From IMG/VR virus record IMGVR_UViG_3300039049_000045, positions 3,725 to 25,800 of that record: a DNA stretch of 22,076 bases, one strand, 5' to 3'. Source of the DNA: a virus. Positions 2,767 to 21,793 of this stretch are shown here, piece by piece (within the stretch, counting starts at the first letter, position 1; every line of letters begins with the position of its first letter). The position numbers and the translations under genes were made by a program. Below the pieces are notes generated by a model, which had not been told where the DNA came from, ran no database searches, and worked only from the letters and a program-made list of their open reading frames with translations.

Positions 2767-4136
2767 TGGCACAAGAACCAGTAACAGGCGGCACAGGATT
2801 ACCGGAAGAAAGGTCTAAGTTACCTATTGTACAAACTGAACAACAAGCAGGAATTGCTGATACTCCTGCTACTCTTCCTACTGGCACAGAAGTAACACCA
2901 GATAAATTAGAAATAGGGGCAGATGAATTATTAACTACACCTGCACCTTTAACAGCTAAAGAACAAACTATAGCTACATCACCAACAACTAATTTAGATG
3001 TATCAGTTCCACAATCAAAAACAGCAACAACTTATACAGCATACACAGAACCGGGAACAGTTGAAGCTAATGCCGCAAGTGGCACACTAAATTCTCAAGC
3101 AATAATAGGTAACATTGAAGGTGCTGTATCTCAAGCATCGCAAGCATCTGTTGTTAATCAAGAGTTAGACCAACGTGCTACAGTAAAATATCAATTAGAT
3201 AAATTATTTAGTGACTTCCAAGAAGGAACAGAACTACCTGCATGGGCATCACCTGCAGTTAGAAAAGTTACTGCTATAATGAATCAACGTGGTTTAGGTT
3301 CTTCTAGTATGGCATCAGCCGCTATTACACAAGCAATTATGGAATCTGGTGTTGCCATAGCCGCTAATGATGCAAAAATGTATGCGGCAATACAATTACA
3401 AAACTTAAAGAATGAACAGCAAACCACATTACAAAATGCATTAGCAGTAGCCGCAATGGACAGAGCTAATGTAAGTGCAAGAACAAATGCGGCTGTAACA
3501 AACGCACGTTCTTTTCTATCAATTGATTTAGCTAATTTAACAAACGAACAAAAAACTGCTGAGTTAAATTATCAAGGAACATTGCAAAAGATGTTTAAAG
3601 ACCAATCAGAAATAAATGCATCTAGACAATTTAACGCAAAAGAACAAAATGACATAGATGAATTTTTTGATGAATTAGCAACACAAGTAGAAACAGCAAA
3701 CGCTAACAGACAAGTAGCTAACGAACAGTTTAATGCCGACCAAAAAAATGCAATAACAAAATACTATGAATCACTAAATGATTCTCGTGATAAATTTAAT
3801 TCTAATATGACTACACAGATAAATCAATCAAATGCTGTGTGGAGAAGAGAAATAAACACAGCTAACACTGCACTACAAAACGAAACAAATAGACTTAATG
3901 CAGGTAATTTATTAAACTTAACAACAAACGCACAAAATTATTTATGGCAAAGATACCGTGATGAAGCATCATGGTTAATGGCTAGCACAGAATCTGCAAA
4001 AGATAGAGCACATGCAGTTGCAATGTTTGCACAACAAGCAGAGTTTAATCAAGATACTTATGAAAAACAACAAAAAGACTTACTACTAACAGAACTTGGT
4101 ATGACAGTTTTTGATTTAATATTTGGAGATAACTAA
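2766..4136 (+). CDS. Helical Ala/Gln/Asn-rich virion protein (possible internal or tail-associated)
   Basis: 456 aa. Residues 1-110 are Pro/Thr/Ala/Glu-rich with little hydrophobic core and are probably disordered. From about 115 onward the protein is strongly helical and rich in Ala, Gln and Asn, with long coiled-coil-like stretches (NEQFNADQKNAITKYYESL). A segment at about 173-190 (NQRGLGSSSMASAAITQA) is the most conserved-looking part and resembles a motif I associate with structural proteins of marine tailed phages. It ends with a hydrophobic segment (LLLTELGMTVFDLIFG). It has 1-bp overlaps with both neighbours. Its place just upstream of the presumed ejection-protein genes fits a gp14-like internal core or tail-associated role, which is inference. 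Confidence 0.75.
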   Translation: MAQEPVTGGTGLPEERSKLPIVQTEQQAGIADTPATLPTGTEVTPDKLEIGADELLTTPAPLTAKEQTIATSPTTNLDVSVPQSKTATTYTAYTEPGTVEANAASGTLNSQAIIGNIEGAVSQASQASVVNQELDQRATVKYQLDKLFSDFQEGTELPAWASPAVRKVTAIMNQRGLGSSSMASAAITQAIMESGVAIAANDAKMYAAIQLQNLKNEQQTTLQNALAVAAMDRANVSARTNAAVTNARSFLSIDLANLTNEQKTAELNYQGTLQKMFKDQSEINASRQFNAKEQNDIDEFFDELATQVETANANRQVANEQFNADQKNAITKYYESLNDSRDKFNSNMTTQINQSNAVWRREINTANTALQNETNRLNAGNLLNLTTNAQNYLWQRYRDEASWLMASTESAKDRAHAVAMFAQQAEFNQDTYEKQQKDLLLTELGMTVFDLIFGDN

Positions 4137-13508: not shown

Positions 13509-13754
13509 ATGGCAATGAAAAAGAAAAAAGCTATGATGCGTGGTGGTGGTAAAAAAACCAACATGAAAAAGAAAAAAGCAATGGGCGGAAGAATGTCCAA
13601 AATGAAAGATGAAAAGCTACCAACTATGAAAGGTGGCGGTAAAAAGAAAAAAGCTATGAACATGGGTGGCAAAAAGAAATCCATGATGCGTGGCGGAGGA
13701 ATGAAAAAAAAGATGATGCGAGGCGGCGGAATGATGAAAGCTAAGAAGAAATAA
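13509..13754 (+). CDS. Highly basic Lys/Met/Gly repeat protein
   Basis: 81 aa of extreme composition: by count 28 Lys, 4 Arg, 18 Met and 16 Gly, with only two acidic residues (net charge about +30). MMRGGG occurs three times (residues 9-14, 59-64, 69-74), with TMKGGG at 39-44, and these alternate with KKKKAM-type blocks. AGGAG at 13498-13502 is 6 nt before the ATG, a good ribosome site. It is the last rightward gene and its end overlaps the last leftward gene by 14 bp. Composition suggests nucleic-acid binding or condensation, like a protamine, possibly packaged with DNA. Membrane or polyphosphate interaction is also possible. I recall similar short K/M/G-rich ORFs in other marine phages, but no function. 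Confidence 0.7.
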   Translation: MAMKKKKAMMRGGGKKTNMKKKKAMGGRMSKMKDEKLPTMKGGGKKKKAMNMGGKKKSMMRGGGMKKKMMRGGGMMKAKKK

Positions 13755-14921: not shown

Positions 14922-15265
14922 TGTTTCTTACCTATGTCTATCTTTTTAAATATGGGGTCTAATTCTTGTGCGTCTGGCTTACTACCAGATTGTGAAGCCT
15001 CCGTAATTTTATCTATAACAGCCATTTGTCCTGCGGCTACAATTTTTTCCATATCACTATCTAGTAACTCTAAAATACCTTTCATAACATAAAATACAGG
15101 ATGTAAATCTTTGTCTGATGGCATCGTATCATAAGCAACCACATCAAAACCATCTGGCACATCTTGTGTTGGTTTAAATACTAAATAAAATCTATCTGGT
15201 AATAAACCTAATTCTTCTGCCGCATCTCTTTTTAAAGTAGAATAAAATTTTTTTACTTCAGCCAT
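14918..15265 (-). CDS. Unknown replication-operon protein
   Basis: 115 aa. An N-terminal alpha/beta part (VKKFYSTLKRDAAEELGLLPDRFYLVFKPTQ) is followed by FDVVAYDTMPSDKDLHPVFYV, then a helical half (MKGILELLDSDMEKIVAAGQ) and a charged flexible tail ending DIGKKH. No motif or fold is recognised. It overlaps the resolvase gene by 13 bp and the downstream nuclease-like gene by 4 bp, placing it in the same transcript. Being between two nuclease genes suggests a role in DNA metabolism, but nothing in the protein shows one. Confidence 0.65.
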   Translation of the reverse strand: MAEVKKFYSTLKRDAAEELGLLPDRFYLVFKPTQDVPDGFDVVAYDTMPSDKDLHPVFYVMKGILELLDSDMEKIVAAGQMAVIDKITEASQSGSKPDAQELDPIFKKIDIGKKH

Positions 15266-15609
15266 TCTCTCGGAATCCTTTTTTCACACCATAGTATATC
15301 ATGTTTAGTGCACCACGCACCATAAGTTGTTTTACTACCTTTGTAAATCTTATTGTTTGCATTAATAAATAAAATTCTAATATCAACTTTCTTGTGTTGT
15401 TTTTTAATAAGAAGATGCTTCTTTCTATCTGCCTTATCAAACTCACCTTTAACCTCAATAAAAAATTTGTACTTAGGCAAATAAAAATCTGGTAGATAAA
15501 TCTTTGGGTCTGGTATGTATTTAAATTTGTGCTTTTCATATTCATAATTTATACCTTCTTTTATTAGCCATGATGCAAAGCTAATTTCTGCCTTTGACCT
15601 AAACCTCAC
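15253..15609 (-). CDS. T7 endonuclease I-like Holliday-junction resolvase
   Basis: 118 aa, GTG start at 15609. The sequence follows T7 gp3 closely: RSKAEISFASWL with the catalytic helix Glu8, YLPDFYLP with Asp41, and FIEVKGEF with Glu52/Lys54, corresponding to T7 Glu20, Asp55, Glu65 and Lys67. It then has DRKKHLLIKKQH, DIRILF, KIYKGSKTTYG and the closing IPREWLK. It lacks T7's extra C-terminal residues (T7 gp3 is 149 aa). Known role: a PD-(D/E)XK dimer that resolves branched DNA before packaging and breaks down host DNA. The GTGA overlap with the upstream 130-aa gene supports the GTG start. Confidence 0.93.
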   Translation of the reverse strand: MRFRSKAEISFASWLIKEGINYEYEKHKFKYIPDPKIYLPDFYLPKYKFFIEVKGEFDKADRKKHLLIKKQHKKVDIRILFINANNKIYKGSKTTYGAWCTKHDILWCEKRIPREWLK

Positions 15610-15998
15610 AATAATGTTTTTAACTTATACTTACTGATGTTTGAAAAATGACTTTTAAATATTTCAAATGTACCAAATGTATTTTTTTCTAATTCATTTA
15701 AAACCATAGTAGTATCATCCTGCGGAAACACAATTAATTTACCTGTTTTTATCGCAGTAATTAATCCTTGAAACCTAGAATCAACTTCATGTTTTCTTCT
15801 TTTTAAGTTCTCATCTTGCCAATACCCATCTTTTGATTGATTGTCTCGATAAAATATAACGTGACAATTAGGATGCTCTCTCATCCATGCAATGTTTTTT
15901 CTTTCGTTGTTTGTATCATCATAGTAAATCCAAATAACATTTTCATCATTTGCTTCAACATCAGCTTTTCTAATGTTTGATAACCATAGTACGTTCAT
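15606..15998 (-). CDS. Small phage protein resembling the N-terminal 'FGDN' family, motif altered
   Basis: 130 aa. The order IRKADVEANDENVIWIYYDD, an NIAWMREHPNCHVI block, a helix with EVDSRFQGLITAIKTGKLIVFP and a final FEIFKSHFSNIS resembles a widespread small phage protein whose members usually read 'adl.anpd..fvFGDN' followed by '..ReaPNa.gIp' and end with '...iPadG.G.g...l....P.i...i'. Here the FGDN-like position is YYDD and the later Gly-rich signature is QDDTT, so if there is an active site it has diverged. Function of the family is unknown to me. 4-bp overlaps link it to the Cas4-like nuclease upstream and the resolvase downstream. Confidence 0.6.
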   Translation of the reverse strand: MNVLWLSNIRKADVEANDENVIWIYYDDTNNERKNIAWMREHPNCHVIFYRDNQSKDGYWQDENLKRRKHEVDSRFQGLITAIKTGKLIVFPQDDTTMVLNELEKNTFGTFEIFKSHFSNISKYKLKTLL

Positions 15999-16891
15999 AG
16001 GTCTGCTAGCTCCTTTGTTTTAAGTTTACTATACCATATAATAGGTTTAGCTTTTGCTCGTGATGTTATCTTAGGATGCATCTCAGCATTTGGCCAACAA
16101 TGTTTTCTAAATCCGCAATAACCACAAATAGTGTTTAGTATTCTATTACCAGTTTCTTTTTCTATCCCTTTATCTTTACCTGTTCTTGCTTTGTAAACTT
16201 CTTTTGCATCTTCAAAACCCTTTTTAAATTTTACATTTTTATTTAATTTATTTATCTTATCTTTTATTCTTTTTTGTGAGCTACTAATTTCTTCTTCTTG
16301 ACTATCTGGCACTTCACAAACTGCAAACTCACCAGTAACTTTATTAACCGCTATCCACCCACCAAATTTTGATTTATCACCAGACGCATACATAAACCCT
16401 TGGTCTACATAACCAAAAGTATCTTGTTCTTTTATTCTTTCAAATCCACCGTATTCACCAAATTTATTACTAAAACTAGCAGGACTTGCAGATTTAATAT
16501 CCCAAATCTTTCCATCTATTTTAACATCATAAGTGCCCTCTAATTTAATATTAGCTATGTCTAATGATACAGGTTCTTGTATCTTCTCTAATTGTATTCC
16601 TGCTCCTCTTAATACAGCTATCGCCATAGCTTCTATCAAATCACCTAATAAAAATTTTACTATTGCATTATATTCTGTTTCATATTCTACATTTTGTTTA
16701 CCAAGTTGTTGTTGACATAATGGCTTACCAACTTCAGACATTCGTAAACGCCATTCTTTTTTGTTAGAATTAAATTGTTTTTCTATCGCTTTTTGACAAG
16801 ATTCACCAAACTCCTTAACGACTTCGGGGGGAAGACTAGCTTCCCCCCTAGACGCATCATAAAGAAAATTTTCGACTAATGTCTTAATCAT
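15995..16891 (-). CDS. Cas4/RecB-like exonuclease with Fe-S-type cysteines
   Basis: 298 aa. The PD-(D/E)XK core of the RecB group is visible: the helix GDLIEAM (Glu87), EGTYDVKIDG with Asp122, the strand WDIKSAS with Asp131/Lys133, and QGFMY (Gln164, Tyr168) matching the QxxxY motif. Cys59 in the early KPLCQQQ segment and the C-terminal trio Cys256-x2-Cys259-x5-Cys265 reproduce the four-cysteine spacing plan of Cas4 and AddB-type nucleases that hold a 4Fe-4S cluster. The expected activity is 5'-3' single- or double-strand exonuclease for recombination or host-DNA breakdown, taking the place of T7 gp6. Overlaps are 1 bp upstream and 4 bp downstream. No cas1/cas2 is present, so it is a stand-alone phage exonuclease. 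Confidence 0.85.
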   Translation of the reverse strand: MIKTLVENFLYDASRGEASLPPEVVKEFGESCQKAIEKQFNSNKKEWRLRMSEVGKPLCQQQLGKQNVEYETEYNAIVKFLLGDLIEAMAIAVLRGAGIQLEKIQEPVSLDIANIKLEGTYDVKIDGKIWDIKSASPASFSNKFGEYGGFERIKEQDTFGYVDQGFMYASGDKSKFGGWIAVNKVTGEFAVCEVPDSQEEEISSSQKRIKDKINKLNKNVKFKKGFEDAKEVYKARTGKDKGIEKETGNRILNTICGYCGFRKHCWPNAEMHPKITSRAKAKPIIWYSKLKTKELADL

Positions 16892-17736
16892 TAAGGCTGT
16901 GCCTCTATCTCAATAGCTAGGGAGTGGTCGCTATTTTTTGGTTTTAGTTTCACAGCCTCACGATGTTTCTCCATGACGGACTCATTCACTGCAGATACAG
17001 TCTCAGCGAATTCTTTTAATAAACTCTTATCTTTATCATTTATAGTATCTACCATAGTTTTTACGGTAGGTTCCACAATAAAGAAAGTGTTCCCAACAGT
17101 TTTTTGTTTCTTCGTTGCCATTGATACAACTGCCCTTATCATTGGTTTTCGTTGCTTTGCAAGATTGCCAATAATTTTTTGGAAAGGTACGTAATTGACC
17201 CCTTTAGCATAGAAGACACATGGTTGGTCAACAATTGGTTCAAACTTAGTTTCATCAGTATATTTACCATCATTAATAGTAGCTATACCATAAATTACTT
17301 GATTACACTTAACTTGATTACTTAATACTTTCTTTGCATCAGTATCACTTAATTCAGCAAGCTCATCTTTACCCAGTTTTCCGCACTTGTAACCGCCTTG
17401 AACATCCGGAAATTCATCGCTTAAGCTCGGTCTTTGAACCGAAGCAACAAACGTATCTTCCGCATTATCCCAATAACTATAACTATATAATCTTAGAAAC
17501 ATTCTAAAATCTACCGTTTTCGCATAAACGGTTTTATCTCCCACACGTAATGAAAACCAACCTCTAGGTAATGGTTTATCATTTTCGTCTTCTGCTTGAT
17601 AATTTATAGATAGTCTTGATAATACTGAAGAGGAATCTCCACCGACTAAACCTTGACCTGTTAAGTTCATCAACTGTTCATCGGATAGATTATCAAAGTT
17701 CTCTGGTATGGCAATTGCCATATTATTTGTACTCAT
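16891..17736 (-). CDS. Unknown; candidate ssDNA-binding or replication accessory protein
   Basis: 281 aa. The N-terminus is Asn/Ser/Asp-rich, followed by a beta-rich middle (PRGWFSLRVGDKTVYAKTVDFRMF; QVIYGIATI; QPCVFYAKGVNYVPFQKII) and a helical C-terminal part (LLKEFAETVSAVNESVMEKH). Lying between polymerase and exonuclease, it occupies the place of T7 gp2.5 (ssDNA-binding protein), which also sits near those genes. The acidic C-terminal tail typical of such proteins is weak here (ending IEIEAQP), so this is only a candidate. It has the best ribosome-binding site in the window, a complete TAAGGAGGT 9 nt before the ATG, suggesting it is made in large amounts, as an ssDNA-binding protein would be. 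A second ATG five codons in is possible. Confidence 0.6.
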   Translation of the reverse strand: MSTNNMAIAIPENFDNLSDEQLMNLTGQGLVGGDSSSVLSRLSINYQAEDENDKPLPRGWFSLRVGDKTVYAKTVDFRMFLRLYSYSYWDNAEDTFVASVQRPSLSDEFPDVQGGYKCGKLGKDELAELSDTDAKKVLSNQVKCNQVIYGIATINDGKYTDETKFEPIVDQPCVFYAKGVNYVPFQKIIGNLAKQRKPMIRAVVSMATKKQKTVGNTFFIVEPTVKTMVDTINDKDKSLLKEFAETVSAVNESVMEKHREAVKLKPKNSDHSLAIEIEAQP

Positions 17737-19277
17737 GATTTGAATACCTCCTTAGTTTCTAACCAGTTACTACCCATCTTAAGTTCAATACCAATAGGCA
17801 TATCATACTTTACGCCATATCGTCTTTGAGTTTCCTCTGGTAAACACAACATAGCCTCTTTTAATGTTTCTATTGCCATCTCTTCTTCATCTGGGTAAAC
17901 GTCTAATACAATACTATCATGTACTGTGTTGCAGATAATACTTTTTAATTTACGCTTTGTCAACAACTCATCTAATTTAATTAACGATATGGGCAGTAAG
18001 TCAGCCGTGGCAAATCCTTGAACAGGATAATTTTTAATAGCTGTAGCATTTGATACACTACCACTAGGCATACGTTCAGTATTTGGAAAGTAATATGACC
18101 TTCCAGATGGTAAAGTTATGTGCCTTGTTTCTAATGCTTCATTAATTAGATTTCTATGCCATCTTGTTACACCGCTATACTTTTCTTTAAATGCACGATA
18201 GTATTGCATCTGTTTTGGTGTACCTAATACACCCCCATATAGCGGTTTAAAAGTGTCTGCCTTGGCTACTTGTCTTGAAACTCCTAATATCTTTGCCGTA
18301 AAGCTATGCACATCTACGTTGTTTTTAACATCAGCATATATCTGGTCATCATCAGCTAAAAACCCGGCAACTCTAAATTCTAATTGTGCGTAATCACCCT
18401 CTAATATTTTACCACCATCCCATCTTGATATGATACATTGTCTAACAGGAAACGTACCACCTCTAGGCATGTTTTGAAAGTTTGGATTTCTAGAACTAAG
18501 CCGACCTGTTGATGTAACACATTGCATGTATTGTGGTCTAATGTAATCGTTATTGTCTTTACTTTTCTCTATTCCATCTACAAAAGTTCTAAGATAAGTT
18601 CTTATAGCAGAATATCTTACATACTTTTCTAAAAACTCTCTTTGATTTGGATTAATAGATGATATAAATTCTTCTAATGTAGTTTTATCCGTCTTAAATC
18701 CTGTAGCAGATGTATCAAGTGAACCTCTTGGTATTAATCGTAATCCTGCTCTTTCTTTTGTATTAGTATATATTCTACCTTTTGCATTACATGTTTTACA
18801 ATTTCTTTTTATGTTACTGTATGTACCATCTTTCTTTTTGTATTTATACTTACCTGTGCCAGCACAGTTTTGACACAGTGTTGATGTTGTTTTAAATATT
18901 GGTTTTGCTAAACCATTTACTGCATGATAAAAATCGTTTATCTCATCATAATTAGTTTTACGTTTTTGTTTTCTTGTATTACCTCGTACTTCATATCCAA
19001 TATTAAATTCTTTTGCCCATAATTTTTTATCTATAACTTTCATAGAAAAAAATAACATAGACCTATCATCTGGCGAGTCTAAATTTATTGGTGTATCTCC
19101 CATAAGTTCATCTATCTTTGTAAGTAAAAAAGTTTTTAATTCTTTTAGTTCATTTTCGTATTGGTCTTTTATCTTGTGCAAAGCGTCAACATTAATCTTA
19201 ATGCCGTTGTATTCTATCTTTGCTAATACTTTCATTAGCTCCATACTTAATTTTATTGTTGGGAAAAGCCTCTGCAT
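17733..19277 (-). CDS. Family A DNA polymerase, polymerase domain with zinc-finger insertion
   Basis: 514 aa, the polymerase half only. Motif A is DYAQLEFR (Asp295), motif B is R335-x3-K339-x3-F343-x3-YG, and motif C is HDS (His453-Asp454-Ser455) where E. coli Pol I and T7 have HDE. Phe343 aligns with E. coli Pol I Phe762. Fingers and palm continue with YPVQGFATADLL. In the thumb region, residues 135-167 hold C-Q-N-C-A-G-T-G and C-K-T-C-N-A-K-G, two half-sites of a DnaJ-type CxxCxGxG zinc finger, absent from Pol I and T7 polymerase. The start ATG at 19277 overlaps the exonuclease gene by 25 bp, with GAGGA 3 nt before it. The N-terminus (LFPTIKLSMELMKVLAKIEYNGIKI) is the usual link following the exonuclease domain. 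Replicates phage DNA with the exonuclease encoded upstream. Confidence 0.95.
   Translation of the reverse strand: MQRLFPTIKLSMELMKVLAKIEYNGIKINVDALHKIKDQYENELKELKTFLLTKIDELMGDTPINLDSPDDRSMLFFSMKVIDKKLWAKEFNIGYEVRGNTRKQKRKTNYDEINDFYHAVNGLAKPIFKTTSTLCQNCAGTGKYKYKKKDGTYSNIKRNCKTCNAKGRIYTNTKERAGLRLIPRGSLDTSATGFKTDKTTLEEFISSINPNQREFLEKYVRYSAIRTYLRTFVDGIEKSKDNNDYIRPQYMQCVTSTGRLSSRNPNFQNMPRGGTFPVRQCIISRWDGGKILEGDYAQLEFRVAGFLADDDQIYADVKNNVDVHSFTAKILGVSRQVAKADTFKPLYGGVLGTPKQMQYYRAFKEKYSGVTRWHRNLINEALETRHITLPSGRSYYFPNTERMPSGSVSNATAIKNYPVQGFATADLLPISLIKLDELLTKRKLKSIICNTVHDSIVLDVYPDEEEMAIETLKEAMLCLPEETQRRYGVKYDMPIGIELKMGSNWLETKEVFKS
17746..17754 (-). promoter_or_regulatory. Perfect Shine-Dalgarno of the 281-aa gene
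   Basis: On the - strand TAAGGAGGT is fully complementary to the 16S rRNA 3' end (ACCUCCUUA). It lies 9 nt before the ATG at 17736, inside the last codons of the polymerase gene. Other genes of the operon have weak or no such site, so this marks locally strong translation initiation. Confidence 0.85.
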
Positions 19278-19810
19278 ACTTCCTCAAATTTTAAATTTAT
19301 TTTATTCAATTGTGCACATGCTAACTGATACGTAATCTCAACATCTTGTTTGCCATATTCTTCTACAACTTCCCAAGGTATATCTTCATATGATATTTTC
19401 TTTTTTAAGTACGGGTCAATTAAGTCTGTGGCTTTTAAATCTAATCCTCTTCTCTTACAGCTATCAGCTAAACTAAAACCTCTTTTTAATCCTTTTGCAA
19501 ATGTATATTCTATTATCATTGTGTCATACATTTTTTCGTTGTATGTAAATCCACAACTAACTAACCAATTGTAATCAAATTTAAGATTGTGTCCTACTAA
19601 TAATCCTGTTTCATCTAAAACTTTTTGCAAAATTTGTTTTGCATCTTTTGTTGGCTTTTGATGATTGTGATTAAAACATAGATACTCACAAGGTTTATCA
19701 TTAACTTTATAGCCAACACTAACAAGTATGTCTCCTTCAAAAGGACTTGATACCGTGTCATCATATTTTCTGTGATAAGATGTTTCTACGTCTAGTGTTG
19801 TTACGTTCAT
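19253..19810 (-). CDS. 3'-5' exonuclease (proofreading) domain of family A polymerase
   Basis: 185 aa with the DnaQ-fold proofreading motifs of Pol I/T7 gp5: ExoI TTLDVET (Asp7, Glu9), ExoII VGHNLKFD (Asn75...Asp79) and ExoIII YGKQDVEITY (Tyr152, Asp156). The middle (DTMIIEYTFAKGLKRGFSLAD) is also typical. In most relatives this domain is fused to the polymerase. Here it ends at TAA 19255-19253 and the polymerase starts in the -1 frame 25 bp earlier. It follows the helicase gene by a 4-bp overlap. It presumably works in trans with the polymerase. A sequencing frameshift is the alternative explanation. Confidence 0.93.
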   Translation of the reverse strand: MNVTTLDVETSYHRKYDDTVSSPFEGDILVSVGYKVNDKPCEYLCFNHNHQKPTKDAKQILQKVLDETGLLVGHNLKFDYNWLVSCGFTYNEKMYDTMIIEYTFAKGLKRGFSLADSCKRRGLDLKATDLIDPYLKKKISYEDIPWEVVEEYGKQDVEITYQLACAQLNKINLKFEEVCRGFSQQ

Positions 19811-21009
19811 TCAAATACTCCCCTCTCAATATCTATTGATGTGTATGTGTTACCATGCCAACCATTTAATTTATTTTTGCTAACATGTAAAGTTCTAGCA
19901 TTGTCACCTTCGCCAACACCTATTCCTAAAATTATGTCTGCCTCACCTGCCTTGCCTGTTCTTGAATTATCTAAATGTTCATAACTAACTTCATGTAAAT
20001 TTTGTGCTTCATAACTTGCTTGTGATACTGCCCATATTAAACAACTATGTCTTTTTGCTATCTCTCTTGTTCTTACATAAACTTCTTTTAATTTTTCATC
20101 TGTACGATTGTATAAACCAGTTATGTGTACTTTATCTAACTGGTCAATAAACATAACATCCGGGGAATAAAGTCTTGCATAATTTTCTATCTCGTCAATG
20201 TGCGTACCAACACTGTCAAAAACTGTCAGATAATCTTTTATCTCAGTTTGATAACGTGGTCTAAAATATTCTATTCTTTCTGCTACATCTTTTTTAGAAA
20301 CTTCAAAATGTGATTGTATTATTCTTGTTTTAATTCTTACTGCAGGTTCTTCATTTGCCCAATACGTTACTTTCTTTTTTTGTTGTACATAACCTGCCGC
20401 CAAAAAACTAGATAAAGTTGTTTTACCCATCTCTGGTCTTGCAAGTAGTATACAAAAATGACCACGAGATAAAGCTGTCACCCGATTATGTAAAGTTTCC
20501 AATCTAAAATCAAACTCACCTTTGTCAACTGAACCATCAAACAATTCGTCAATATCTTCCTTTATTTCACTGTAACTGTCAGCATCTATTAACTCTTGTT
20601 CATTTATCTTCTCTACCATATTTTTAAGACCACCGATTGCTTCTGGTCTTTCATGTCCGTTGTAGATGTCTACTGCTAGTTCTCCTATCTCTTTTGCTTT
20701 TGAGCGAACCCAAAAGTTTTTAATGATGTCAATATTTAGTTCCGGATTGATACTATTTTCTGGTATTTTATCTATTGTTTTACAAATGTTCTCGTATGTA
20801 GAGCTAGGTGTTGCGGGAAATAGGTCAGCATGTATGACCTTTAAATCATGATTTGTCAGCTTTTGACCAGAGTGATTGTCATGTGCATTTGTAATTAAAG
20901 TATAAATCTGTCGAAGCTCTTTGTTAAAAGCCTCTTTGTCAATAAATCGTTTTACTTTATTGTAGCTCTCGTAATCTTTACAGATGCTTATTACTTGCAA
21001 CGGTATCAT
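19807..21009 (-). CDS. Replicative DNA helicase, DnaB/T7 gp4-type
   Basis: 400 aa. The N-terminal 170 residues are helical (DnaB-N-like or linker). The RecA-type core begins near ETLHNRVTALSRGHFCILLARP. The P-loop is RPEMGKTT (residues 191-198, Lys196), a variant lacking the usual first Gly. Walker B is DVMFIDQLD (284-292), the Gln sensor is AVSQ (Gln329), and NSR-TGKAGEADIIL (348-361) holds the Arg-finger region. Ends SIDIERGVFE. Known role: hexameric 5'-3' unwinding at the fork, loading on the lagging strand with primase. It starts 32 bp inside the end of the primase gene in another frame, so it corresponds to the helicase half of T7 gp4, encoded separately. Confidence 0.92.
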   Translation of the reverse strand: MIPLQVISICKDYESYNKVKRFIDKEAFNKELRQIYTLITNAHDNHSGQKLTNHDLKVIHADLFPATPSSTYENICKTIDKIPENSINPELNIDIIKNFWVRSKAKEIGELAVDIYNGHERPEAIGGLKNMVEKINEQELIDADSYSEIKEDIDELFDGSVDKGEFDFRLETLHNRVTALSRGHFCILLARPEMGKTTLSSFLAAGYVQQKKKVTYWANEEPAVRIKTRIIQSHFEVSKKDVAERIEYFRPRYQTEIKDYLTVFDSVGTHIDEIENYARLYSPDVMFIDQLDKVHITGLYNRTDEKLKEVYVRTREIAKRHSCLIWAVSQASYEAQNLHEVSYEHLDNSRTGKAGEADIILGIGVGEGDNARTLHVSKNKLNGWHGNTYTSIDIERGVFE

Positions 21010-21793
21010 TCATCCACCCCCATGCTTTACTGTTTACCTTATCTACTAAAATTTTTATATCTTCGTCAGCCATATTTTTTATGTCATCTTCTAAAACTAA
21101 AAACTTTGTATTTATAATTAAATTTAATTCATCACAAATTTTTGTAGCTTTTTTTGTTGCATCTCTGTCAAGTGCAACCCCTACCTTATCATACTTTTTA
21201 ATGATGTCGATATGCTTTTGCAAAAGATTAGTTCCAAGTAAAGCTATGCCTGTAGCGTATTTTGATACAGCACAAGCACTAGCACAATCTTCAACAATTA
21301 TTGCTGTTTTTTTATCTCCACAAACAAAAGGGTATTTACTATTTCCATAGCGATACCATTTCGGTTTCATTCCATTTAGTGACCGACCAACTCCGTCAAC
21401 AACATTACCCTCTTCATCTTTAATTAAAAATACACATCTTGCTAAATTTTTGTCGTATTTTATGTCAACATGCTTATTGTAATAGGCGAGGTAACTATTT
21501 GATTTTGTTAGATAATCTAGACAATCTACACTAAATCTTGCATCATTCCAATTTGTCGGCGTTATAAAAATGTCATCCTCCTCCTTCTTTACAAATTCTT
21601 TTCTTGTAAAACTTTCTTTAGATAATTTTTCTCTCGCAACGCCTTTGATGTTACAATCAATATGAAAGCAATTGTATAACAAAACACTACCATTATTGTG
21701 AACAGAAAAAGTATTGTGATTGTGACAAATCGGACAATCCATTCTGGTAGTGGTGTTTGGTTCGATGTTGATGTCATTTAAAAATTCTTTCAT
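20978..21793 (-). CDS. DNA primase, T7 gp4 N-terminal / DnaG-type
   Basis: 271 aa. A zinc-binding domain is formed by Cys20, Cys23, Cys42 and Cys47 (CPIC...CFHIDC). An RNA-polymerase-type segment follows with FLIKDEEGNVVDGVGR and WYRYG. The TOPRIM domain has Glu168 (AIIVEDCASA), Asp209/Asp211 (GVALDRDA) and Asp237 (LEDDIKNM), the metal-binding acids. It is close in length to the primase half of T7 gp4. It is the first gene of the leftward operon. No Shine-Dalgarno precedes its ATG, and the promoter candidate places the transcript start within a few bases of it. It makes RNA primers for the helicase encoded next. Confidence 0.93.
   Translation of the reverse strand: MKEFLNDINIEPNTTTRMDCPICHNHNTFSVHNNGSVLLYNCFHIDCNIKGVAREKLSKESFTRKEFVKKEEDDIFITPTNWNDARFSVDCLDYLTKSNSYLAYYNKHVDIKYDKNLARCVFLIKDEEGNVVDGVGRSLNGMKPKWYRYGNSKYPFVCGDKKTAIIVEDCASACAVSKYATGIALLGTNLLQKHIDIIKKYDKVGVALDRDATKKATKICDELNLIINTKFLVLEDDIKNMADEDIKILVDKVNSKAWGWMNDTVASNKHL

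Follow-up and report, generated by a model that had tools for sequence, protein, structure and literature searches.

A DnaJ-like four-cysteine finger inserted in the thumb of the DNA polymerase of a putative HMO-2011-type marine phage

A phage DNA polymerase that carries a DnaJ-type cysteine motif between its conserved regions raises the questions of whether such a finger has been described before, where in the fold it sits, and what it might do there. The window, by which we mean the whole stretch of DNA analysed, comprises 22,076 nt (positions 3,725–25,800) of the 25.8 kb virus record IMGVR_UViG_3300039049_000045. The polymerase gene and the parts of it considered here are as follows.

17733–19277, minus strand: family A DNA polymerase without an exonuclease domain, 514 aa (PF00476, E 1e-48)
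18702–19037, minus strand: whole thumb insert, residues 81–192, 112 aa (profile match to Bst Pol I; alignment with relatives)
18777–18875, minus strand: DnaJ-type Cys4 finger, residues 135–167, CQNCAGTG...CKTCNAKG (motif, PF00684, profile search, conservation)

The preliminary description of this DNA had proposed a DnaJ-type Cys4 finger, and its coordinates were exact (on the minus strand, the finger runs from 18875, the first base of C135, to 18777, the last base of G167), as were its pattern for the first motif (C-x2-C-x-G-x-G) and the spacing of 17 residues. Motif 1, CQNCAGTG, occupies residues 135–142 (18852–18875, minus strand), and motif 2, CKTCNAKG, occupies residues 160–167 (18777–18800, minus strand). 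The latter, originally written as C-x2-C-x3-G, corresponds to a DnaJ repeat in which the first glycine has become alanine. Support for the proposed finger type comes from Pfam, from a profile search and from cysteine conservation. PF00684 (DnaJ_CXXCXGXG) matches residues 130–171 (E 8.4e-5, 23.2 bits) and the NCBIfam DnaJ model matches residues 99–175 (E 3e-5). A profile of 14 fingers, searched against PDB chains, has the Cys-rich domain of E. coli DnaJ (1EXK) as its top match (E 6.6e-5), aligns best with DnaJ repeats 2–3, and finds anti-TRAP protein next among the PDB matches. Judged by these scores, the match to the DnaJ type is far beyond chance. The finger is not a full member of PF00684, since it has two repeats rather than four and its 23.2 bits lie below the curated cut-off of 32.7 bits. 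While CxxCxGxG repeats are common to both, the E. coli DnaJ domain (1EXK, PF00684) has four repeats and two metal sites, whereas the finger in the window has two repeats and would be expected to have one site. Unlike E. coli DnaJ, the finger sits inside a polymerase and is not accompanied by a J-domain, the part of DnaJ that stimulates DnaK; searches of the 514-aa protein against Pfam and NCBIfam domains gave no J-domain match. By sequence, the finger is therefore best classed as a partial, derived relative of the DnaJ Cys-rich domain, and this DnaJ-like Cys4 knuckle most probably binds one zinc ion.

The finger in the window is an already published hallmark of HMO-2011-type polymerases. This group of marine phages, which includes HMO-2011, the RCA roseophages and pelagiphage HTVC033P, is defined by an atypical DNA polymerase whose partial DnaJ central domain bears two CXXCXGXG motifs (PMC9038755, PMC6918029, PMC8528129). 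The published domain thus answers in the affirmative the question, left undecided in the preliminary description, of whether the finger had been described before. The HMO-2011 record lists PF01612, PF00684 and PF00476 for its polymerase gene. With homology to isolates defined as at least 80% of length and at least 25% identity, the 514-aa protein is homologous to the polymerases of HMO-2011, the CRP phages and HTVC033P, over 96–99% of its length and with 37–45% identity; the closest isolate, HTVC033P, shares only 45%. It has the family A polymerase domain (by PF00476 and by fold, Z 31–33) and the partial DnaJ domain with two repeats, the second bearing Ala for its first Gly. The two CxxC repeats of a partial DnaJ domain are likewise present in HMO-2011 gp12, in the polymerases of CRP-1, CRP-2 and CRP-3, and in HTVC033P gp22, and HMO-2011 and HTVC033P share the gene order primase, helicase, polymerase with the replication module of the window, the other genes of which are listed below.

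15253–15609, minus strand: phage endonuclease I, same module (PF05367, E 5e-35)
19253–19810, minus strand: 3′-5′ exonuclease, separate gene, 185 aa (PF01612, E 7e-9)
19807–21009, minus strand: DnaB-like replicative helicase, same module (PF03796, E 4e-12; order as in HTVC033P and HMO-2011)
20978–21793, minus strand: DNA primase, TOPRIM, DnaG-like (domain matches; synteny with HTVC033P and HMO-2011)

Unlike these isolates, the window has exonuclease and polymerase as two genes and CxxCxAxG as its second motif. The exonuclease domain is absent from the polymerase chain and lies in the separate, overlapping ORF at 19253–19810. The split variant is nested inside the HMO-2011-type group on the tree, so that membership is by descent and not by a fused exonuclease. 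Compared by its replication module, the window can be assigned to an uncultivated HMO-2011-type marine phage. New here are the exact place of the finger in the thumb, one helix from the position of the T7 loop, and the existence of the exonuclease as a separate gene in this branch.

The preliminary description had allowed that the four cysteines might not be conserved in relatives, which the alignment rejects: all four are present in 245/245 insert-bearing polymerases (window included) gathered from viral contig scans and phage records, and in 34/34 representatives after clustering at 80% identity. Both glycines of repeat 1 and the last glycine of repeat 2 are also kept throughout the 245, while the first glycine of repeat 2 is variable, being replaced in 103 of them (by Ala in the window). 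Cysteines 253, 281, 449 and 478, which lie outside the finger, are not conserved and have been lost in many of the 34 representatives. The only invariant residues of the insert are the cysteines, the finger glycines, G151 and A177-G178, as would be expected for a metal-held fold. L258, a more remote member recovered from a genome bin, reads CDECKGNK...CKKC, with one glycine lost; it was rejected as an exception to the motif, since all four cysteines are present.

When the insert alone was searched against 50,697 phage records (E ≤ 1), no match was found outside HMO-2011-type phages. A distribution of the finger beyond the group was also rejected for genome bins, in which it is confined to contigs that encode HMO-2011-type polymerases. 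Such polymerases were observed on contigs in MAGs classed as bacterial, Neomarinimicrobiota and Euryarchaeota (L255–L263). L256 and L257, as well as L261 and L262, are equal-length, equal-match contigs in two MAGs, and these phage contigs have therefore probably been mis-binned.

Profile comparison and fold superposition both place the finger between the N-terminal helices of the thumb and the polymerase core, in agreement with the thumb location first suggested. The family profile matches Bst Pol I in two pieces (residues 8–79 on 178–244 and 187–506 on 253–579), between which ~107 polymerase residues face only 8 residues of Bst Pol I; in this comparison, the insert stands in place of about 8 thumb residues, after the N-x-x-S helix. 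The AlphaFold model of the 514-aa polymerase has a pLDDT of 89.6 (about 85–94 over the finger), and its strands 128–134, 143–147, 153–159 and 168–176 flank both CxxC turns. In VIA, model residues 1–509 superpose on Klenow 519–928 (378 aligned, rmsd 2.9, Z 31), and superpositions on Klenow, Bst and Taq give Z 31–33. The insert comes directly after the thumb helix that corresponds to residues ~579–593 of E. coli Pol I and precedes the ‘TDKxTL’ segment; its site matches residues ~593–602 of E. coli Pol I. It measures 112 aa in the window and 96–120 aa in finger-bearing relatives. Among finger-less entries of the phage collection, the best matches are the polymerases of Zobellviridae (VpV262 and relatives) and StenR_269, which are 33–37% identical to the window polymerase over the palm/fingers region. 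Four of these finger-less polymerases (three Zobellviridae and StenR_269) have 13–19 residues at the insert site. Because these closest finger-less relatives carry no long insert there, the idea that the finger is a replacement for another element finds no support.

The finger had also been tied to the thioredoxin-binding insertion of T7 polymerase, a link that the positions of the two inserts do not uphold. The T7 gene 5 polymerase is, like that of the window, a family A enzyme with a long thumb insertion, but its loop has no CxxC pairs, and the N-x-S-S helix separates it from the finger site. The T7 thioredoxin loop precedes the FNPSSRDHIQKKL helix (T7 334–346), whereas the finger in the window follows the equivalent INLDSPDDRSMLFF helix (residues 64–77), so that the two occupy opposite sides of the same helix and are two different insertions. 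The window polymerase has no T7-type thioredoxin-binding domain, that is, no insertion before the N-x-S-S helix, and we class the finger insert, on this alignment, as an element that is not of the T7 type. An hhalign pairing of the T7 thioredoxin loop with the finger was rejected, as it set the N-x-S-S helix of T7 on the wrong segment: between T7 and E. coli, this helix and the segment following it match with a score of 69, where shuffled sequences reach at most 44, which puts the inserts on opposite sides. T7 polymerase is not among the VIA matches listed, which says nothing either way on a T7 relation.

HMO-2011, HTVC033P, CRP-3 and CRP-738, all isolates, encode one chain with both the exonuclease and the polymerase. 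The window has instead two genes that overlap as follows.

19253–19277, minus strand: stretch shared by the end of the exonuclease and the start of the polymerase, 25 bases, different frame (ORF comparison)

An SD-like GAGGA stands just upstream of the polymerase ATG, and the exonuclease residues are kept: DxE (7, 9), N75-D79 (N-x3-D) and Y152-D156 (Y-x3-D). Split genes occur at 48 loci (the window and 47 relatives). Every one of them falls in a single clade related to HTVC033P, and the tree requires two changes between the fused and split states. Since these 48 loci come from different samples, an assembly error was rejected as the source of the split. A programmed frameshift was also rejected: the junction frame is −1 in the clade of the window and +1 in others, and in L012 and L015 ~190 bases separate the exonuclease stop from the polymerase start codon downstream of it. 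From these differing junctions and gaps, the two products are most likely separately translated proteins. The polymerase tree of PMC9038755 took in only sequences above 540 aa, a filter at which split polymerases of ~514 aa would drop out, and we infer that this survey missed them for that reason. Separate exonuclease subunits as such are already known in phages (PHROG 403 and 192).

As to function, the processivity or partner-binding role suggested in the preliminary description is plausible, and we tentatively favour a finger that acts as a zinc-held, basic extension of the thumb tip gripping the new duplex. With one zinc held by the four cysteines, the insert would fold as a rigid, basic extension; this would embrace or track the newly made duplex and, through that grip, make the enzyme bind DNA more tightly and act more processively in cis. 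According to a passage of PMC10061031 that cites Minnick 1996, E. coli Pol I with a shortened thumb binds DNA less well, is less processive and has a lower frameshift fidelity. The T7 thioredoxin loop and the thumb inserts of Pol gamma resemble the finger only in the broad sense of processivity-type thumb insertions. The Pol I thumb deletion made by Minnick in 1996 reportedly covered the very segment that matches the insert site. The basic character of the finger (14 K+R against 2 D+E in the window; net charge +3 to +13 over 47 sequences, with a median at the 85th percentile among equally long stretches of the same proteins) would count for a DNA grip. Against it, the net charge is raised yet not extreme in many members, and a basic surface is also compatible with protein docking. 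Outside Cys and Gly, the finger has a mean identity of 42%, compared with 59% for the polymerase core, a variability that would fit DNA contact but no less a role in structure or docking. No DNA is present in the predicted polymerase model.

That variability also speaks for a docking site for a replisome partner (the helicase or primase of the phage, a protein of the SSB type or a factor from the host), a reading that we consider possible but doubtful. The thumb loop of T7 binds thioredoxin and SSB, the thumb insert of the human mitochondrial polymerase binds partners, and a mobile-element family A polymerase has a predicted SSB contact at the thumb tip. Further, the finger profile matches both DnaJ and anti-TRAP, whose Cys4 knuckles serve protein contacts. 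However, the finger is kept by all members whatever the host, which argues against docking. Few conserved residues of the insert are anything but metal ligands or turn glycines, a pattern that could also be expected of a mere structural staple, which would help a long insert to fold and have no DNA or partner role of its own; this is improbable, since an insert of ~100 residues that all members seen have retained, divergent as the group is, points to a further function. Recruitment of the host DnaK chaperone system, in the way that host DnaJ does for lambda replication (an analogy brought up for the DnaJ-type domain in PMC9038755), has kinship with DnaJ repeats 2–3 in its favour but is very improbable, given a finger with only two of the four DnaJ repeats in a polymerase without a J-domain match.

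Combined with the separate exonuclease subunit, a duplex-gripping finger could form a thioredoxin-independent, zinc-held thumb processivity module, and hence, in the branch of the window, a family A replicase of two subunits that brings its own DNA grip. We think this combination unlikely; if true, it would place such a processivity module in the thumb of one of the most abundant phage polymerases of the ocean. The thumb placement replaces the vague annotation ‘between exonuclease and polymerase’ with a testable question, namely whether a zinc knuckle at the tip of the thumb sets processivity.

The catalytic residues of the window polymerase are kept in invariant alignment columns (motif A D295; O-helix R335-K339-F343-Y347; motif C H453-D454). 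F343 (18249–18251, minus strand), the O-helix equivalent of E. coli F762, is Phe in 249/249 aligned sequences; T7 polymerase has Tyr at this position. Elsewhere in the window, an 81-aa protein (13509–13754, plus strand) is built almost wholly from Met, Lys, Gly and Arg, arranged as repeating MKKK/RGGG units, gave no match in NCBIfam, and is encoded directly 3′ of a conserved phage ORF (phrog_28122). A 298-aa ORF (15995–16891, minus strand), for which no significant match was found in Pfam or NCBIfam, ends with the C-terminal cysteines CGYCGFRKHCW and is possibly a Cas4/AddB-like nuclease. CRP-738 has a gene annotated as exonuclease at a similar position.
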